Shown here piece by piece: positions 47,641-54,243 of a DNA stretch of 64,000 bases. A program made the translations under genes and the position numbers. Numbering within the stretch: the stretch's first letter is position 1; each line of letters begins with the position of its first letter. A model generated the notes under the pieces. The model made no database searches. It was not told the origin of the DNA and saw nothing but the letters and a program-made list of their open reading frames with translations. Source of the DNA: Bacteroidales bacterium (GTDB lineage: Bacteria; Bacteroidota; Bacteroidia; Bacteroidales; WCHB1-69); the NCBI GenBank assembly GCA_017549765.1, contig JAFYNM010000029.1, positions 308,048-372,047 of the forward strand, in the 5' to 3' direction.

Positions 47641-47747
47641 ATCTCTTCCAACGATGGCTTCTTGTCGGGATACTTGTCGGTGAGATATTTCTCGTAGCCC
47701 TTCTCCGCCACGAAATTCTTGTTGAAAGCGATAATTTGGTCGATCAT
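47637..47747 (-). pseudogene. 5' stub of a beta-carbonic anhydrase gene (36 codons)
   Basis: ATG at 47747 opens MIDQIIAFNKNFVAEKGYEK, then YLTDKYPDKKP, which is the N terminus of bacterial beta-carbonic anhydrases; these normally continue with a CMD(T/S)R zinc-site motif. Here the frame departs after PDKK and stops at 47637-47639, so all zinc ligands are missing. The stub keeps a good promoter box (47770-47777) and overlaps the next gene by ATGA, so it now works as a leader for that gene. Confidence 0.75.
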
Positions 47748-47769
47748 AGTTTGTCTATTTATTATTCCG

Positions 47770-47777
47770 CAAAAATA
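47770..47777 (-). promoter_or_regulatory. -7 promoter box for the stub and winged-helix gene
   Basis: CAAAAATA reads TATTTTTG on the minus strand, 22 bp upstream of the stub ATG. Confidence 0.6.
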
Positions 47778-47795
47778 GAAAAATTGCGACAACTT

Positions 47796-47910
47796 GTCGC
47801 ATCTCTCCGAGATGCTTGCCTCGACCGCGCCCGTCTAACACCACACTGCGCTCCGCTTGTATGGTGTTAATTGCGCCACTGGCGCGTCTCATGCCTCTGG
47901 CATGGTGACC
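47796..47910. repeat. Structured palindromic element, copy A
   Basis: Begins GTCGCATCTCTCCGAGATGC (a hairpin), has a central CACCACAC...GTATGGTG stem with an inner GCG-ctc-CGC stem, and ends with CATGCC-tct-GGCATG. Same orientation as copy D; similarity to D continues to about 47945. Confidence 0.85.
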
Positions 47911-48022
47911 AACCGAACTTTTGCCTGTAATTATAACATAAATTATCCCCATGTGTGAAAATTGACAGGTAAAATATGAACAGTCCAAGATTTTTGCCCT
48001 GAGATGCGGATTAGATGATTAT

Positions 48023-48802
48023 TCAATCACTGACCACGAAAGCGTATCTCTTTTCTTTTAAAGCCTGTCTGATTTCATCATCCAATTGATTCTCATCATA
48101 TTTTGTTGACCAATAATCGCTTTCGCTAACTTTTTTGAAATTGAGAAGATAGTCGGTTTGTAGTCGCGAAACGAAATAGAAATATTCTGGCTTTATTTCA
48201 TTGCATGTCACAAATTCATAGTTGTCTTCCCCAGAGAAAATACGCAATCCTTTATCTGTCGGAAACGAAGAAGAGGCGGAATGGTATTCGCAGAAGCCCT
48301 CAATTTTCCAATTCTCGGAATGCAATTTTTTGAAAAAACGAAACGCACCAAGTTTTTTCCTTTCATAATGATGAAGTGCCTCGTGCAATAAAACGGAGGA
48401 AAGACTGCGTGGCAAAAGTTGTGGCTTTCGTGGCTCTATAGAATTTTTCGTCCAGTCGCACGGTCGGATCAAGATTGCCTTCAGACCGGTTCGCGACAAA
48501 GCAAGAGGTTTTCCAATTGCCATAGCCTTTATGTGAAACTCAGCCATCGTTCGGCAGAAATAGATGGAAATTTTTGGAGAATAATCACTATCAACTTTCA
48601 ACAACTGTACTCTAAGCGTTTCTGCCATTTGTTCAGCTTCCTCTTTATACCGCGTATCATCAGCATAAATGGAAATGCCGCTATTTGAATAGACTTTTTT
48701 CAAACCAATGCCACACGCCAAACGATATGCTGGAGCCAGAAGAAGCAAAACAGCCAAAACCTCAAGTACTGTTATAATAATTCTTCTCCAATTCTTTTTC
48801 AT
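48023..48802 (-). CDS. Putative membrane-anchored zinc protease (HExxH)
   Basis: 259 residues, with one N-terminal membrane segment (about residues 9-28) and the rest outside the cytoplasm. SSVLLHEALHHYERKK near residue 140 is a HExxH zinc site, and WKIEGFCEYHSASSS about 30 residues later offers the third ligand Glu, the gluzincin layout. I do not recognise the family. It has its own promoter box (48894-48901) and is visibly more AT-rich than the core genes. It is enclosed by palindromic copies A and B in inverted orientation. Protease activity is inference. Confidence 0.6.
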   Translation of the reverse strand: MKKNWRRIIITVLEVLAVLLLLAPAYRLACGIGLKKVYSNSGISIYADDTRYKEEAEQMAETLRVQLLKVDSDYSPKISIYFCRTMAEFHIKAMAIGKPLALSRTGLKAILIRPCDWTKNSIEPRKPQLLPRSLSSVLLHEALHHYERKKLGAFRFFKKLHSENWKIEGFCEYHSASSSFPTDKGLRIFSGEDNYEFVTCNEIKPEYFYFVSRLQTDYLLNFKKVSESDYWSTKYDENQLDDEIRQALKEKRYAFVVSD

Positions 48803-48893
48803 TGTTATAAGAGGACTTCTATTAATTATTACTTCGCATTGTCGCCAGTCTTACTATGAAATTCGTTAAACATCAAGACAGGCAATAACGCTG

Positions 48894-48901
48894 CAAAAAT
48901 A
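48894..48901 (-). promoter_or_regulatory. -7 promoter box for HExxH gene
   Basis: CAAAAATA reads TATTTTTG on the minus strand, about 92 bp upstream of the ATG. The rest of the 48803-49124 gap holds AT-rich sequence and palindromic copy B. Confidence 0.55.
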
Positions 48902-48980
48902 CAACTTTTTTATAGTATAAAAAATATAAAAGGTTGCAGTTGGTTTGAAATATTTTTTTGTGGATTTTGTTTGGATACTG

Positions 48981-49092
48981 GCTCACAGCCTCGGAGAGGC
49001 GTCACGCACGCAGTGCAATTAACACCACACAAGCGAAGCGCAGTGTGGTGACTGACGCGCACGGCTGGTCCGGCATATCGGAGAAATGCGAC
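48981..49092. repeat. Structured palindromic element, copy B
   Basis: Opposite orientation to A. Central perfect stem CACCACAC/GTGTGGTG around AAGCGAAGCGCA; outer end carries GCCTCGGAGAGGC, the other end a weakened CATATCGGAGAAATGC hairpin. Confidence 0.8.
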
Positions 49093-49124
49093 ATCTCACA
49101 ATTTCTGAATTTCCGTAAAAACAA

Positions 49125-49946
49125 CTACACGAATCGAATTCTATCCGCAAGTTGCAGGAAATAGTCGTTGGACCAGATGTCAAGAGCGTGAGGGTCTGCA
49201 ATGAAATCAATCACATCCGCTTTTACCAGATTAATGTCTGCAGTGGCCAGTTTGTCGCGTAATTGCAGGAGAAATGATTCTTTGTCAACATCTTCTCCGT
49301 TAAAATCCTTGATTCTTTGTTGCAAATGATTGAAATCCAATGAAATATCTTTACGCACATACCATTCGAAATCGAACCAATCGCGTCCCTTGATTCTCCT
49401 TTGCCATGCCCGATATACAAGCGCGTGCATTTTTCCGGCATATAGGTCGGGCAAAGTGAAACATCTCGTCATAAACGAAAAAGGTTCCAACAGTAGTTTC
49501 TGTTCCGTATCAAATTGCAAAGGAGGATCCGTGTCTAATTCTATCTTGATCTTTACAGTCTTTTTTGTCTGAAATTTGATCTCGTAAGCCTCTGTGTTCT
49601 CCTTCAAAAATGCCGACTCTACTCTACCGAAGTATTTTTTATCTTTCTTAGTAATGGTTACGGTAAGACCACACAGTTTGAATTCGTTCACAATCGCCGG
49701 AAAGAATGTCTCCAAATGAATATCGTCGCGTTTGGTGATTAATGAAAAATCCAGGTCTTCCGAGAAACGGGGAAGTCCATGAAAAATTCTCAGACATGTG
49801 CCACCGTAAAAAGCAGCGTGATCGAAAAAACCACCGCGATAAAGACCACCCAGCACTATTTGTTGCATCACTTCATGAGAGGAGTTTGGAGTTGAGATGC
49901 CCATTCTTTGCACATGATTCTCGAGCATGTTTTCGTATATCGTCAT
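49125..49946 (-). CDS. AbiEii-family nucleotidyltransferase toxin
   Basis: 273 residues. Toxin half of a type IV toxin-antitoxin / abortive phage infection system; family members are nucleotidyltransferases thought to modify tRNA. Diagnostic segment: FYGGTCLRIFHGLPRFSEDL with the G(G/S)T...DLDF metal-binding Asp pair, then IKIELDTDPP and LPDLYAGKMHALVYRAW with a KGRDWFDFEWY motif. The start overlaps the stop of the antitoxin-like gene by 4 bp, the standard coupled order. Confidence 0.9.
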   Translation of the reverse strand: MTIYENMLENHVQRMGISTPNSSHEVMQQIVLGGLYRGGFFDHAAFYGGTCLRIFHGLPRFSEDLDFSLITKRDDIHLETFFPAIVNEFKLCGLTVTITKKDKKYFGRVESAFLKENTEAYEIKFQTKKTVKIKIELDTDPPLQFDTEQKLLLEPFSFMTRCFTLPDLYAGKMHALVYRAWQRRIKGRDWFDFEWYVRKDISLDFNHLQQRIKDFNGEDVDKESFLLQLRDKLATADINLVKADVIDFIADPHALDIWSNDYFLQLADRIRFV

Positions 49947-50572
49947 CGTTGTATGATTTTAATGAGATTGTCCAGAATTGATTTTTTCCCACCTTGCGCG
50001 GCACAGGATTCGATGATTTCCACGTCGAAATTCGCCAATTCGTCCATATCCAGTCGGAGATCCTCCTCCAAATATTGAAGCAATCCTTTCAAGGAACGAT
50101 TGGGCAAGTAGCTGTCATACAGTATGAAATCGCACAATGCCTTTTCGGGAGTGGCCATCATAAATGAAATCCCATCTTCTTGGACGATTCTCAGTCCGAT
50201 GCTGAAATACGAGGCTTTTACCTGATAGTAATCGAAAAAACCGATAGGGGTCTCGAATGACCTCGAACGCTTGATCGTGGTGGAGGTCATACGGTGAACC
50301 TGTTCGGGTATCAGCCCATACCAACGCAACGCCCACCGGAGCGAAACGTATGAAGGTCCGTAGATGTGGTTGGCACATAGCGGTGCACTGATGGGCTTTC
50401 CGCTGATTTCGGGATTCACGACATAAAGCCCGCGCTTTAGTCGAATGAGTTCTCCACTATTCTCCAAAGATTGAACCTTTTTTGAAGGCACACCCAACTG
50501 CTGGTAGTCTGATTCTATCATCTTACCAAACACGGGAACATTTCCATATTGCAGAAGAGGGTTCTTCTTCAT
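49943..50572 (-). CDS. AbiEi-family antitoxin / transcriptional regulator
   Basis: 209 residues. N-terminal winged-helix-like part (VPSKKVQSLENSGELIRLKRGLYVV) followed by the AbiEi C-terminal domain: IYGPSYVSLRWALRWYGLIPEQVHRMTS, then MMATPEKALCDFILY. In AbiE systems this protein represses the operon and neutralises the AbiEii toxin without direct contact. -7 box at 50591-50598. Together with the toxin gene it forms a complete type IV module. Confidence 0.88.
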   Translation of the reverse strand: MKKNPLLQYGNVPVFGKMIESDYQQLGVPSKKVQSLENSGELIRLKRGLYVVNPEISGKPISAPLCANHIYGPSYVSLRWALRWYGLIPEQVHRMTSTTIKRSRSFETPIGFFDYYQVKASYFSIGLRIVQEDGISFMMATPEKALCDFILYDSYLPNRSLKGLLQYLEEDLRLDMDELANFDVEIIESCAAQGGKKSILDNLIKIIQR

Positions 50573-50590
50573 AACATCATTTTACGGCTG

Positions 50591-50598
50591 CAAAAATA
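50591..50598 (-). promoter_or_regulatory. -7 promoter box for abiE operon
   Basis: CAAAAATA reads TATTTTTG on the minus strand, 18 bp upstream of the AbiEi ATG. AbiEi-type repressors bind near their own promoter; no clear inverted repeat was found by eye. Confidence 0.6.
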
Positions 50599-50724
50599 CA
50601 AAATTTTACATAGAAAACGAAATTATTTTTCCTTTTCTATGCGAAATTTTGAATACACAGTTGCTGGAAGATGTGCGGGTGTATTGCCAACACAATACTG
50701 TGCCTGTCTGCTTGTGTGGCGAAA

Positions 50725-53052
50725 TTACCGCAGGTATGGCCCCGTGACAGAAACCGTATCCTCCGACATCGCCTTGGGCGTTCCCGTGAAGATAATGTCG
50801 CCGCCCATCGCGCCGCCACCGGGACCGAGCTCGATGAGCCAGTCGCAGGATTTCAGCATCTCAATGTTGTGCTCGATGAGGAAGATCGTGTTTCCGGCTT
50901 CCACCATCGTGTCGAAGAGCGCCAAGATGCGCTTGATGTCGCCCGCGTGGAGACCGTCGGAGGGCTCGTCCATGATGAAGATCTTGCCCTCGTCGCGCAG
51001 ATAAGAGGCTAACTTGATGCGTTGCAACTCGCCGCCAGAGAGGGTCGAGAGCGACTGATTGAGGTGTAGGTACCCCAAGCCGACCTTGCGCAGCGGCTCC
51101 AATTTCTCGGCAATGACACTTCCCGCGAACAGCTCGGAGGCTTTATTGGTGGTGAGGTCCATCACCTCAGCAATGTTCATGCCGTTTACCTTGTAAGACA
51201 AGACTTCCGGCGAATAACGCAAGCCTCCGCAAGCCTCGCAGGTGGTCTCAATGGCATCCATGAAGGCCATGTCGTTGACGATGACACCTTTCCCCTGGCA
51301 GACGGGACAGCCGCCTTTGCCGTTGAAGGAGAAGAGGTCGGCTTTGGTCTTGTTGGTTTTGGCGAAAAGTTTGCGGATGTCGTCGGCGACGTCTAAATAG
51401 GTGGCCGGGGTGCTGCGCAGGCTGATGCCGATGTTCTTCTGGCTGATATAGACGATGTCTGATTGTTGAATTGTTGAATTGTTTATTTGTTTATATGTTG
51501 AGCTGTTGTCGCAAGAACAGTTCAACGATTCAACACTCTTAATAAAACATTCCATCAGCGAGCTCTTTCCAGAACCCGCCACACCTGCGATGCCGCACAT
51601 CACCCCTAACGGCAGTTTGACGGAAATGTTCTTCAGGTTGTGCAGGTTGGCGTTTACCAGAAGGAAGAAATCCTTGGGCGTGCGCACCTGCTCCTTTATG
51701 GCACTCGACACGCTGAGCATGGTACCTGTAAGCGTCTGGCTATGCAGCAGTTCCTCGTAGCTGCCCTCGAAGACGATCTCTCCGCCGTTCATGCCTGCAC
51801 CGGGTCCCATGTCGATGATGTGGTCGGCGATGCGGATGATCTCCTTGTGGTGTTCCACTAGGATGACGGTGTTACCGTGATTCTTAAGTTTCTGCACCGA
51901 TTTCTGCATCAGCAGGATGTCGTGGTTGTGCAGGCCCACGCTGGGTTCGTCGAGGATATACATCACGTCCGAGAGGGGCGAGTTGATGTATTTCGCGATC
52001 TTGCAACGCTGTGCTTCGCCGCTGGAGAGGGTGCCGATGGCACGGTCGAGGGTGAGATAGCCGAGTCCAATCTCTTCCAACGCCGCCAGTCGCTCGGTGG
52101 TGGCCCGCTTGATGTCCTCCGCCAACGGATTGTCGATAGTCTCCATCCACTTCCGGCAGTCGCTGATGCTCATGGCCGTCACCTCTGCGATATTTACCCC
52201 GTTGATTTTGCAGGAGCGTATCTTCTCGTTGAGGCGTGTGCCGCCGCAATCGGGACAGGTGCCCATGGTCAGCATGGGGTTGAGTGCCGCGGCATGCAGC
52301 AGTCCCTCTTCCGAGTTGATGATGCTGCGGTACATGCGTGGGATAAGTCCTTCGTATTTAGCGGTTTTTGGCCAGTTTGAAGGCGGATTTTTCAACTTGA
52401 TCTGCGGCGAGTTGAGGAAAAGGTCGAGCTCTTCGGGCGTGTAGTCCTTGATTTTCTTGTCAAGGTCGAAGAGACCGCTATGGGCGTAGCGTATCCAGCG
52501 CCAGCCACCTTTGTGGAAGGCGATATAGTGGATGGTGTCTTCATCGTTGAGCGACTTATCGAAATCGACCAACTTGTGGATGTCTAGTTCCCGGATTTCG
52601 CCCAACCCGGCGCAGCGCGGACAACTGCCCGATGGGTGGTTGAACGAGAAAGCGTCGGAGTAGCCCACGAAGGGTTGCCCGATACGCGAGAACAGCAGTC
52701 GCAGCAGCGCGTAGATGTCGGTGTAGGTGCCCACCGTGGAGCGCGAGTTGGAGGCGGGTTTGCGCTGCTCGATGACGATGGCGATGGGCAGGTTCTCGAT
52801 GTCGCCCACATGCGGTCGCCCGTATTTGGGCAGATACTGCTGGGTGAAGGAGGGGAAGGTGTCGTTGAGCTCCCGTCGCGACTTGGCCGCGATGGTATCT
52901 AACACTAACGACGACTTTCCCGACCCCGACACGCCCGTCACCACCGTGATCTTCCCCTTGGGAATCCTGACGTTGACGTGCTTGAGATTGTTCTCGGTGG
53001 CATCGCAAACGATGATATGTCCGAAGTCGTGGGTCTGTTCCTTGTCCATCAT
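50725..53052 (-). CDS. UvrA-like ABC ATPase (UvrA2 / drug-resistance type)
   Basis: 775 residues from the tandem ATG at 53052/53049. Two ABC modules: Walker A VTGVSGSGKSSL and IAGVAGSGKSSL, signatures LSSGEAQRCKIAKYI and LSGGELQRIKLASYL, and two zinc modules (CPDCGG, and CPVCQGKG with CEACGG). At ~775 residues against ~940 for UvrA, the UvrB-binding region is reduced, as in UvrA2/DrrC proteins linked to DNA-intercalating drug tolerance. After the second Walker A it has a low-complexity insert (QINNSTIQQS) encoded by an 8-bp repeat array. Single gene with a -7 box at 53085-53092. Confidence 0.88.
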   Translation of the reverse strand: MMDKEQTHDFGHIIVCDATENNLKHVNVRIPKGKITVVTGVSGSGKSSLVLDTIAAKSRRELNDTFPSFTQQYLPKYGRPHVGDIENLPIAIVIEQRKPASNSRSTVGTYTDIYALLRLLFSRIGQPFVGYSDAFSFNHPSGSCPRCAGLGEIRELDIHKLVDFDKSLNDEDTIHYIAFHKGGWRWIRYAHSGLFDLDKKIKDYTPEELDLFLNSPQIKLKNPPSNWPKTAKYEGLIPRMYRSIINSEEGLLHAAALNPMLTMGTCPDCGGTRLNEKIRSCKINGVNIAEVTAMSISDCRKWMETIDNPLAEDIKRATTERLAALEEIGLGYLTLDRAIGTLSSGEAQRCKIAKYINSPLSDVMYILDEPSVGLHNHDILLMQKSVQKLKNHGNTVILVEHHKEIIRIADHIIDMGPGAGMNGGEIVFEGSYEELLHSQTLTGTMLSVSSAIKEQVRTPKDFFLLVNANLHNLKNISVKLPLGVMCGIAGVAGSGKSSLMECFIKSVESLNCSCDNSSTYKQINNSTIQQSDIVYISQKNIGISLRSTPATYLDVADDIRKLFAKTNKTKADLFSFNGKGGCPVCQGKGVIVNDMAFMDAIETTCEACGGLRYSPEVLSYKVNGMNIAEVMDLTTNKASELFAGSVIAEKLEPLRKVGLGYLHLNQSLSTLSGGELQRIKLASYLRDEGKIFIMDEPSDGLHAGDIKRILALFDTMVEAGNTIFLIEHNIEMLKSCDWLIELGPGGGAMGGDIIFTGTPKAMSEDTVSVTGPYLR
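51461..51508. repeat. Octamer repeat array inside uvrA-like gene
   Basis: Six 8-bp units in register: gattgttg, aattgttg, aattgttt, atttgttt, atatgttg, agctgttg. Translated on the minus strand they give the insert SSTYKQINNSTIQQS. Confidence 0.8.
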
Positions 53053-53084
53053 GAAAAATCCAATAACGTTCACTACAAAGGCCG

Positions 53085-53092
53085 CAAAATTA
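53085..53092 (-). promoter_or_regulatory. -7 promoter box for uvrA-like gene
   Basis: CAAAATTA reads TAATTTTG on the minus strand, 32 bp upstream of the first Met; it supports the shorter protein rather than a start at 53106. Confidence 0.55.
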
Positions 53093-53187
53093 CAAAAAAT
53101 CCGCAAGCCGAGATTTAGCCTGAATTGCGGAGTTATGTTTGCAAACGAAATTCACGGTTGTGAGCCTGTGGACGTGTTTTTGTGTAA

Positions 53188-53228
53188 CACAGATTGCACA
53201 GATTGCACAGATTTTAGCCTTCGGCTAA
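53188..53228 (+). repeat. 9-bp tandem repeat followed by a terminator-like hairpin
   Basis: cacagattg occurs twice and cacagatt once in tandem (53188-53213), then TTAGCC-ttc-GGCTAA (53214-53228) and a T-rich tail. No upstream plus-strand gene needs this terminator. The rest of the 53107-53455 gap is palindromic copy C and AT-rich sequence. Confidence 0.6.
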
Positions 53229-53265
53229 TTTTTGATTTTTTTTCGTGAAATAGTAGAATATTGTC

Positions 53266-53380
53266 TCATGGCCTCGAAGAGGCGTCACGCACGCAGTGCA
53301 ACTAACACCACACAAGCCGATAGGCGCAGTGTGGTGATGGCGATGCGCACGAAATATAAGCATCTCGGAGAGATGCGACC
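53266..53380. repeat. Structured palindromic element, copy C
   Basis: Same orientation as B. Contains CTCGAAGAGGC, a central perfect stem CACCACAC/GTGTGGTG with inner GCC-gata-GGC stem, and the terminal hairpin GCATCTCGGAGAGATGC. Confidence 0.85.
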
Positions 53381-53455
53381 AACACAATAACACAAACGTC
53401 TTTTCGTTACAATCATAGCATAAACAAAATTTTAACAATAACTAAAAACAAAATT

Positions 53456-53907
53456 ATGAGCTACACACAGACATCTTATCACATCGTCCTTCGCACACAC
53501 TGCAGCATCCCTGCCATAGTCGAGGACCACGAACGAGAACTTTACTCCTACATGCTCGGTTTCATCAACAACAAGGGAGGCCGACTCTACCGCATCGGCG
53601 GTATGCCCGACCATGTGCATCTTTTCGTATCCCTGCCCGCAACCTTGGCAATGTCCAAGTTCGTCCAGGAGCTCAAAGTCTCCACCAGCAAGTGGCTCAA
53701 GGAAAACCCTCATTTTCCACTTTTTGACGGATGGACGAAGGAGTATGCTGGCTTTTCATACAACCTGCGAGATAAAGACACGATAGTAGGAATATCGCCA
53801 AACAGAAAGAGCACCATTGCCATGTGACATTTGCCGAAGAGTACCGGCAATTTCTTGTCGAGAACGGCGTTGAGATCAAGGAGGAGTACTTTCTCAAGGA
53901 TGGATAG
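53456..53907 (+). pseudogene. Y1_Tnp (HUH) transposase, one-base frameshift at the catalytic Tyr codon
   Basis: The first 113 codons are intact: MSYTQTSYHIVLRTHC, then the HUH metal motif MPDHVHLFVSL, and GWTKEYAGFSYNLRDKDTIV. After GTA GGA (53786-53791) the frame is lost and stops early at 53827. Adding one T there restores TAT ATC GCC and the text GYIAKQKEHH...EEYRQFLVENGVEIKEEYFL to the stop at 53905-53907, total about 150 residues, the normal Y1 size. The deleted base lies in the Tyr codon of the Y-I-x-x-Q helix, where Y1 enzymes keep their nucleophile. The protein as read is therefore inactive. Confidence 0.85.
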
Positions 53908-54026
53908 TCGCATCTCTCCGAGATGCTTGTCTCGACCGCCCCGTCAGCCACCACACTACGCGCTATCGCGCTTGTATGGTGTTAATTGCGCCCGTTGGCG
54001 CATCTCATGCCTCCGGCATGGCGACC
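53907..54026. repeat. Structured palindromic element, copy D
   Basis: Same orientation as A; begins on the last base of the transposase stop. GCATCTCTCCGAGATGC hairpin, central CACCACAC...GTATGGTG stem with inner CGCG-ctat-CGCG stem, and CATGCC-tcc-GGCATG. Confidence 0.85.
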
Positions 54027-54243
54027 TGCTGAACTATTGTCTGTATATAACAACAATTAAAACCCAAACAACATTTGATCGGCAAATGCAATAAGGTTTT
54101 GTCTTTCATTTGTTTGTGTTATGTAATCCCTTCTGTTGTTAAATCCTATTTTATCTCAACCACTGTCGTTAGGTTACGAGCACCTCCGCAACGGCCTCGC
54201 CCTCATGTACCACTTTAAAACAACCATCCCAAATTATCACCAT

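Follow-up and report, generated by a model that had tools for sequence, protein, structure and literature searches.

The window analysed here is a stretch of 64,000 nucleotides (nt) from contig JAFYNM010000029.1 (forward-strand positions 308,048 to 372,047) of a Bacteroidales bacterium in the family WCHB1-69 (assembly GCA_017549765.1). It carries four copies, A to D, of a palindromic element made of several hairpins, and copies C and D enclose a gene for a Y1 (HUH) transposase (Table 1). We examined the structure of the element, its distribution and its putative partnership with the transposase, which together lead us to favour a system resembling the REPtron, the known association of Y1 transposases with repetitive extragenic palindromic (REP) sequences. 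The copies were located by repeat search and alignment, and covariance-model scores agreed that all four follow a fixed plan, as stated in the preliminary description. In order, it comprises a GTCG tag, hairpin 1, a spacer, the central stem CACCACAC, within which lies a variable inner stem, then TTAATTGC, a short hairpin, and a terminal hairpin. Hairpin 1 consists of the stem GCATCTC/GAGATGC around a TCC loop and is perfect in A, C, and D, with one pair lost in B. The central stem, its inner stem, and the TGGTGTTAATTGC arm stand as first described. A terminal palindrome is likewise present in all four copies, but it has two forms rather than one, CATGCCTCYGGCATG in A and D and GCCTCTYCGAGGC in B and C.

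Table 1. Features of the window. Scores of elements A to D are from a covariance model trained partly on these same copies.
Feature	Position	Strand	Score (bits)	Remarks
Element A, 'down' type	47796..47904	+	113.5	GTCG tag; hairpin 1 at 47799-47815; central stem at 47839-47866, then TTAATTGC; terminal hairpin CATGCCTCTGGCATG at 47890-47904
Element B, 'up' type	48987..49092	-	99.7	Plan as in A; hairpin 1 with one T.T mismatch; terminal hairpin GCCTCTCCGAGGC
Element C, 'up' type	53270..53379	-	100.9	Inverted, upstream of transposase gene
Element D, 'down' type	53907..54020	+	101	Downstream of transposase gene; terminal hairpin CATGCCTCCGGCATG
Y1 (HUH) transposase gene, broken	53456..53827	+	64.9	PF01797 (Y1_Tnp); between C(-) and D(+)
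Open reading frame (ORF)	48023-48802	-		259 aa; between A(+) and B(-)
AbiEii-like toxin gene	49125-50572	-	112.6	PF08843; between B and C
UvrA-like ATPase	50725-53043	-	695	772 aa; uvrA cut-off 729.8

The stems of the four copies are kept by paired changes. In a set of 20 copies (4 from the window, 2 from the host genome, and 14 from relatives), standard pairs occupied 90.5% of the cells of the named structure, which was drawn on copy A and is therefore biased in its favour relative to slid controls. The paired fraction was 99.3% in hairpin 1, 87.7% in the central stem, 73.7% in the third hairpin, and 95.8% in the terminal hairpin. Changes on both sides of a pair occurred in 60 cells, compared with a mean of 19.6 (standard deviation 4.6) after columns were shuffled, and none of 500 shuffles gave as many, although kinship among the sequences may inflate such measures. 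Compensatory change, and selection on the structure, had been proposed from the window alone and are consistent with this excess. G.T pairs were found in none of the 260 cells of hairpin 1 and the terminal hairpin, where 7 of the 13 pairs vary on both sides. Their absence despite variation in both stems favours selection on DNA hairpins rather than on RNA.

The Y1 gene reported between C and D is present there, but it is broken. Its frame is intact for about 111 residues, over which the protein is 87-95% identical to 11 relatives, and it is then interrupted by a one-base frameshift at the codon of the catalytic tyrosine (compared with four relatives). Judged from its sequence, the window copy is dead, and close relatives elsewhere are intact. 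The host genome (G000; 2.45 Mb in 36 contigs, the window lying in contig C29) has three Y1 genes, namely, that of the window and the intact genes L002 (contig C21) and L003 (contig C26). One scan of the contigs of relatives, for the most part rumen-derived Bacteroidales assemblies, provided a set of 79 transposase loci drawn from the best 80 of 144 confirmed stretches. L056 is on a contig labelled Clostridia and bears a Bacteroidales-type transposase, with a binning error as the likely cause.

The motif Y---Q--HH was present at 77 of the 79 loci and Y---NP at none, while DH[VIL]H was found at all of them (DHVH at 47, DHIH at 30, and DHLH at 2). All seven proteins scanned with the REP_Tyr_transpos model scored 23.7-31.3 bits against a cut-off of 80 bits, and the window's partial protein scored 20.2. 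With the IS200 model NF033573 (cut-off 55 bits), six of seven intact proteins scored 56.8-77.1 bits and L077 fell below at 53.9. The solved structures matched by sequence were of the IS200/IS605 type, the closest being 2f4f (ISHp608 TnpA), and this sequence search returned no TnpAREP entry among 11 structure sequences at E<=1; 4er8 is the TnpAREP structure named in the survey of Y1 transposases (PMC6006769). A predicted model of the L002 transposase (mean predicted local distance difference test score, 88.1) had an order of strands and helices compatible with the Y1 fold and was not used as evidence. A classical REP-associated tyrosine transposase (RAYT), or TnpAREP, of class 2 was considered and is rejected by the lack of Y---NP and the scores below the REP_Tyr_transpos cut-off. 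The preliminary description was therefore mistaken in placing the enzyme in the RAYT family, and its statement that RAYTs are known mainly from gammaproteobacteria was also too narrow, TnpAREP subclasses 2.4 and 2.6 being listed in Bacteroidetes in the survey's account of these subclasses (PMC6006769). Its wider proposal of a REPtron-like Bacteroidales system with a larger, multi-hairpin element keeps the link between element and Y1 gene and the compound form of about 110 nt, and loses the RAYT membership. Since the enzyme fails the class 2 tests, we do not file the system as RAYT, although it is REPtron-like by arrangement. The transposase fits subclass 1.2 of class 1, an assignment by motif only.

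The element is found beside the gene well beyond the window. In the six closest of the relatives listed, a tagged hairpin lies within a few bases 3' of the stop codon, and an inverted one lies upstream in five of them; the sixth, L059, has almost no upstream sequence. Perfect GTNG-tagged hairpins were found within 100 nt after the stop codon at 41 of 79 loci, compared with 5 of 433 control genes; on the upstream side, an inverted one lay within 300 nt at 35 of 76 loci and at 7 of the 433 controls. With one mismatch allowed, the corresponding numbers were 47 of 79 within 60 nt after the stop (4 of 456 control genes) and 44 of 76 within 200 nt upstream (7 of 456). In a motif-free test, the two flanks of the gene matched as inverted copies at 64 of 76 loci, where their scores exceeded the 99th percentile found for 445 control genes (control maximum 53); compared in direct orientation, the same flanks exceeded the cut at 22 of 76. 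By eye, several loci without GTNG have the same plan with other tags, e.g., of the GAGAG type. The central-stem motif followed 63 of the 144 tagged hairpins in the loci, at a spacing of 38-49 nt in 54 of the 63, and TTA followed the central stem at 23 of the 79 named loci compared with 7 of 512 controls. Tandem arrays of elements in a single orientation were also seen near transposase genes, at L226 (13576-15254) and L218 (16449-17022).

Further copies in the host genome had been set beforehand as a test of the system and were found. With 150 of 543 candidates scored, a covariance model (R1) built from 19 copies gave 28 host matches at E<=1, of which 23 reached E<=1e-3, six of the 23 being training copies. 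They are mostly intergenic: 18 of the 23 had less than 20% of their length inside ORFs of at least 150 aa, compared with 25% of random placements at the same loci. By eye, the host elements fall into a window type, half elements starting at the central stem, a family III, and a GTAG/GTTG type. The family III repeats (L133, L134, L136, L137, L139, L140, L141, L143, L144, L145, and L147) have the central stem in common with the others and differ in the left arm, CGCGCCGCGAG..., and in the terminal hairpin. Across genomes, R1 was run at E<=1e-4 with about 36 candidates scored per genome and stricter filters, so that the counts are lower bounds. Elements were found in 68 of the 104 genomes of the family and none in the other 36. 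As had been expected of a transposase-linked element, the copies track the Y1 gene: they were found in 44 of 46 genomes with the transposase and in 24 of 58 without it (p 1.4e-9), where presence means a protein match at E<1e-35, a cut of our own choosing, and where the genomes are related and some are incomplete. The two genomes with the protein in which this search found no element are G024 and G102. The number of elements in relatives reached at least about 36, i.e., tens, below the hundreds of classical REPs.

The stem type follows the transposase clade. Upstream and downstream stems of one locus were identical in 17 of 36 cases, compared with a mean of 5.0 and a maximum of 13 in 5000 permutations. 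On a maximum-likelihood protein tree, the hairpin type changed 9 times, compared with 22.7 times when shuffled (0 of 200 shuffles as low); this tree has 102 rows (55 labelled and 47 unlabelled), few columns, and a rough bootstrap, and near-copies help such a result. Among its group labels, one covers GTA or GTG and another GTC or GTT. We then used stem patterns of two clades, for which a palindrome may score on both strands. The pattern of the window clade, GTNGCATNTCNNNGANATGC, gave 114 hits in 30 of the 104 family genomes (2 hits for the reversed-pattern control), and that of the L002 clade, GTRGCGTGCNNNNNGCACGC, gave 216 hits in 49 of 104 (1 hit for the control). The window-clade pattern was present in 16 of 16 genomes with a window-clade protein (>=79% identity) and in 14 of 88 others. 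After removal of copies within 2 kb of the gene, it was still present in 13 of the 16 (p 6e-7; 4e-4 within four genera). The L002-clade pattern was present in 20 of 20 genomes with an L002-clade protein (>=70% identity) and in 29 of 84 others, flanking copies included.

Elements also occur as inverted doublets without a gene. Among the copies listed, a count by eye of neighbours on opposite strands within 150 nt gave 17 pairs whose tagged hairpins point towards one another. In 3 other pairs they point outward, and all 3 of these lie beside a transposase gene. The 17 gene-less doublets each have one element of each terminal type, and a middle of 24-25 nt in 11, 31 nt in 3, and 88-91 nt in 3. 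Their layout is also that of the gene-bearing unit. The 17 should not be counted as independent events, because L167, L168, and L169 are one locus in three genomes and others look orthologous. The doublets L167, L168, and L169, together with L171 (two loci in all), are within a larger unit with terminal inverted repeats of about 23 nt (TACTGTTGCGATAAATTTCTATA in L168).

One site was found both occupied and empty. At the 3' end of pepD, fetched from 17 genomes, the unit is present in the window and G018, a half element in six genomes, an empty site in four, and another neighbourhood in six. On each side, some 240 nt of flank could be matched between five half-element sites and the four empty ones at about 89-100% identity; the net difference was 64-73 nt (117 nt in L155), and no clear target duplication was seen. 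This difference may reflect insertion or precise loss. An empty-site scan of all loci found long matching flanks on both sides at pepD alone. When the contigs of G062, G063, G064, and G058 were compared, one doublet was present or absent, but unrelated filler took its place in the other genome, and no clean insertion junction was obtained.

Further features lie between the window copies. The 259-aa ORF, without a Pfam match, is bounded by a down-type and an up-type element; it might represent cargo, or it might just happen to lie between them. Beside the AbiEii-like toxin gene is an AbiEi-like gene (weak, below cut-offs), also between B and C. The UvrA-like ATPase scored below the uvrA cut-off.

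The general plan likely extends outside the family, where it is less firmly shown. Among much more distant relatives within the family, 13 of 20 loci were above the inverted-flank cut, as were the plasmid-borne Cytophagales relatives in Bernardetia (score 46) and Persicobacter (34). In a class-wide sample, the protein was found in 124 of 247 genomes at E<=1e-20, and Y---Q--HH was present at all 29 loci read in other families of the class.

The closest known parallel is the REPtron, composed of a class 2 Y1 transposase and its REPs, which occur also as bacterial interspersed mosaic elements (BIMEs) or REPINs (REP doublets forming hairpins). As outlined in the relevant sections of PMC8266576, PMC3116915, and PMC6006769, it too has inverted tagged hairpins on both sides of a Y1 gene, intergenic copies dispersed through the genome, inverted doublets, and a hairpin for each protein group. 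The comparison draws on PMC3733652 as well. Tetranucleotide-tagged hairpins in both orientations beside the Y1 gene are common to the two systems (GTNG here, though not in every clade). However, the protein here is of class 1 (Y---Q--HH) rather than class 2 (Y---NP), and three or four hairpins are combined in an element of about 110 nt, in place of one REP of 20-50 nt. The tags include GTCG and GTTG besides GTAG and GTGG, and tens of copies were counted, not hundreds. Another Bacteroidota group, TnpAREP of subclass 2.6, is described in the survey's section on it as flanked by 'atypical secondary structures' with further copies in the genome; it is of class 2 with the motif YIH[QN]NP, unlike the loci examined here (PMC6006769).

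In its passages on subclass 1.2, the same survey gives Y---Q--HH, low copy number, occurrence in Cyanobacteria and Bacteroidetes, and a general lack of typical terminal IS200 structures (PMC6006769). Our proteins resemble this subclass in Y---Q--HH, DH[VI]H, a length of about 150 aa, low copy number, and occurrence in Bacteroidota (PMC6006769). The survey's table, based on the complete genomes of that time, lists 'no' REP for subclass 1.2 (Quentin et al. 2018, PMC6006769), whereas inverted elements flank most of the loci examined here. IS200/IS605 elements (subclass 1.1) supply the closest curated protein model and the closest solved structures by sequence, and their palindromic ends with guides are outlined in the part of PMC8266576 devoted to them; here, in contrast, the flanks are inverted copies of each other and many dispersed elements have no gene. 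A literature search, with preprints and most subscription journals outside its reach, yielded no description of REP-like elements associated with subclass 1.2. What looks new is a REPtron-like arrangement on a class 1 transposase with compound elements, in gut and rumen Bacteroidales.

Starting from the architecture, covariation, dispersal, clade matching, and the single occupied/empty site, all observed, we lean, with some reserve, toward a REPtron-like system in which a subclass 1.2 Y1 transposase is paired with a cognate family of compound hairpin elements. Each element comprises a 7-bp hairpin with a GTNG tag at its foot, some 38-49 nt, a central stem ending in GTTA, and one or two more hairpins. 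The enzyme gene is situated between two inverted elements with both tagged hairpins facing it, and inverted pairs without the gene, with a middle of 24-31 nt, are dispersed in some genomes. The element would fold when the DNA is single-stranded, e.g., on the lagging-strand template, and the transposase, as a putative single-strand DNA nuclease of the IS200/TnpA class, would read the tag and hairpin, cut beside them, and move or copy single elements or doublets in trans to new intergenic sites, with each transposase clade reading its own stem sequence. We infer movement of the elements from their distribution and the pepD site; single-strand recognition, cleavage, and movement in trans by the transposase are likewise inferred. 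A wider version, which we hold more tentatively and at a little under even chances, is a Bacteroidota-wide counterpart of REP/RAYT derived from class 1, in which each subclass 1.2 enzyme would keep and disperse its own compound element, and what moves would be the inverted doublet.

Several results weigh against these proposals. Twelve of the 76 loci failed the inverted-flank test, and the host transposase L003 has no inverted element (flank score 14). Family III, with 11 host copies, has no adjoining transposase that we could identify, and 24 of the 58 transposase-free genomes bear elements, some of these genomes at least about 36 of them. The cross-pairs of clade and pattern were weakly associated too (p 0.06 and 0.03; presence, within four genera). 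In the 20-copy set, further pair types were not raised (17 compared with 19.8 in shuffles). The GTTA rule was unsupported farther out, at 2 of 28 loci in other families of the class and 2 of 20 distant relatives (controls, 7 of 512). In those other families, 15 of 28 usable loci passed with their own flanks compared with 36 of 140 mismatched pairs, a modest signal. The pepD pieces are half elements without the tagged hairpin, indicating that the tag is perhaps not needed for them or that they are deletion products.

The main rival explanation is an IS200-related transposon consisting of the inverted element, the gene, and the inverted element, which would move as a whole, with the gene-less doublets as its miniatures and the enzyme not domesticated. 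We regard this as rather unlikely, yet as the strongest competitor. The common layout of gene-less doublets and gene-bearing unit accords with it. So do the changing surroundings of the unit, which adjoins pepD in the window and G018 but has different neighbours in other relatives, and the two doublet loci within a larger stretch that has 23-nt terminal inverted repeats. However, there are few gene copies per genome (three Y1 genes in the host) and many elements, and the gene-bearing unit was not directly seen to be polymorphic at a site or to move whole. To our knowledge, the published IS200/IS605 ends are not mutually inverted copies.

Far less probable is a positional link, in which a different enzyme moves the palindromic repeats and the transposase merely inserted into this repeat family or travels with it. 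The elements in 24 of 58 transposase-free genomes and the lack of a neighbouring transposase for family III would fit such a link, but it does not account for up and down stems matched per gene, a stem type that follows the protein tree, the clade-specific co-occurrence of pattern and protein, or an arrangement kept in more distant relatives and in the two plasmid-borne Cytophagales relatives. A role as structured RNA or as bidirectional transcription terminators, with no connection to transposition, which intergenic placement and strong hairpins might suggest, is disfavoured as very improbable by the lack of G.T wobble in the variable first and terminal stems, the inverted placement around one gene family, and an Rfam scan of 47700-54100 with no match at gathering scores. 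Sites resembling attC, and CRISPR, were considered as well and are not favoured.

In 2018, the survey's text on subclass 1.2 placed these proteins near IS200 transposases, without insertion sequence properties and without REPs (PMC6006769). They now gain a candidate substrate, with clade-matched pairs of element and enzyme. The compound element raises the question of the role of its central stem, as single-hairpin REPs have no such stem. If the REPtron-like reading is true, partnerships of a transposase with dispersed hairpins arose or persisted in class 1 as well as in class 2, and a considerable share of Bacteroidota palindromic repeats would have a candidate author. If the Bacteroidota-wide reading is true as well, these enzymes would generate palindromic repeats on a large and so far unrecognised scale, the protein being present in about half of the class genomes sampled (124 of 247).

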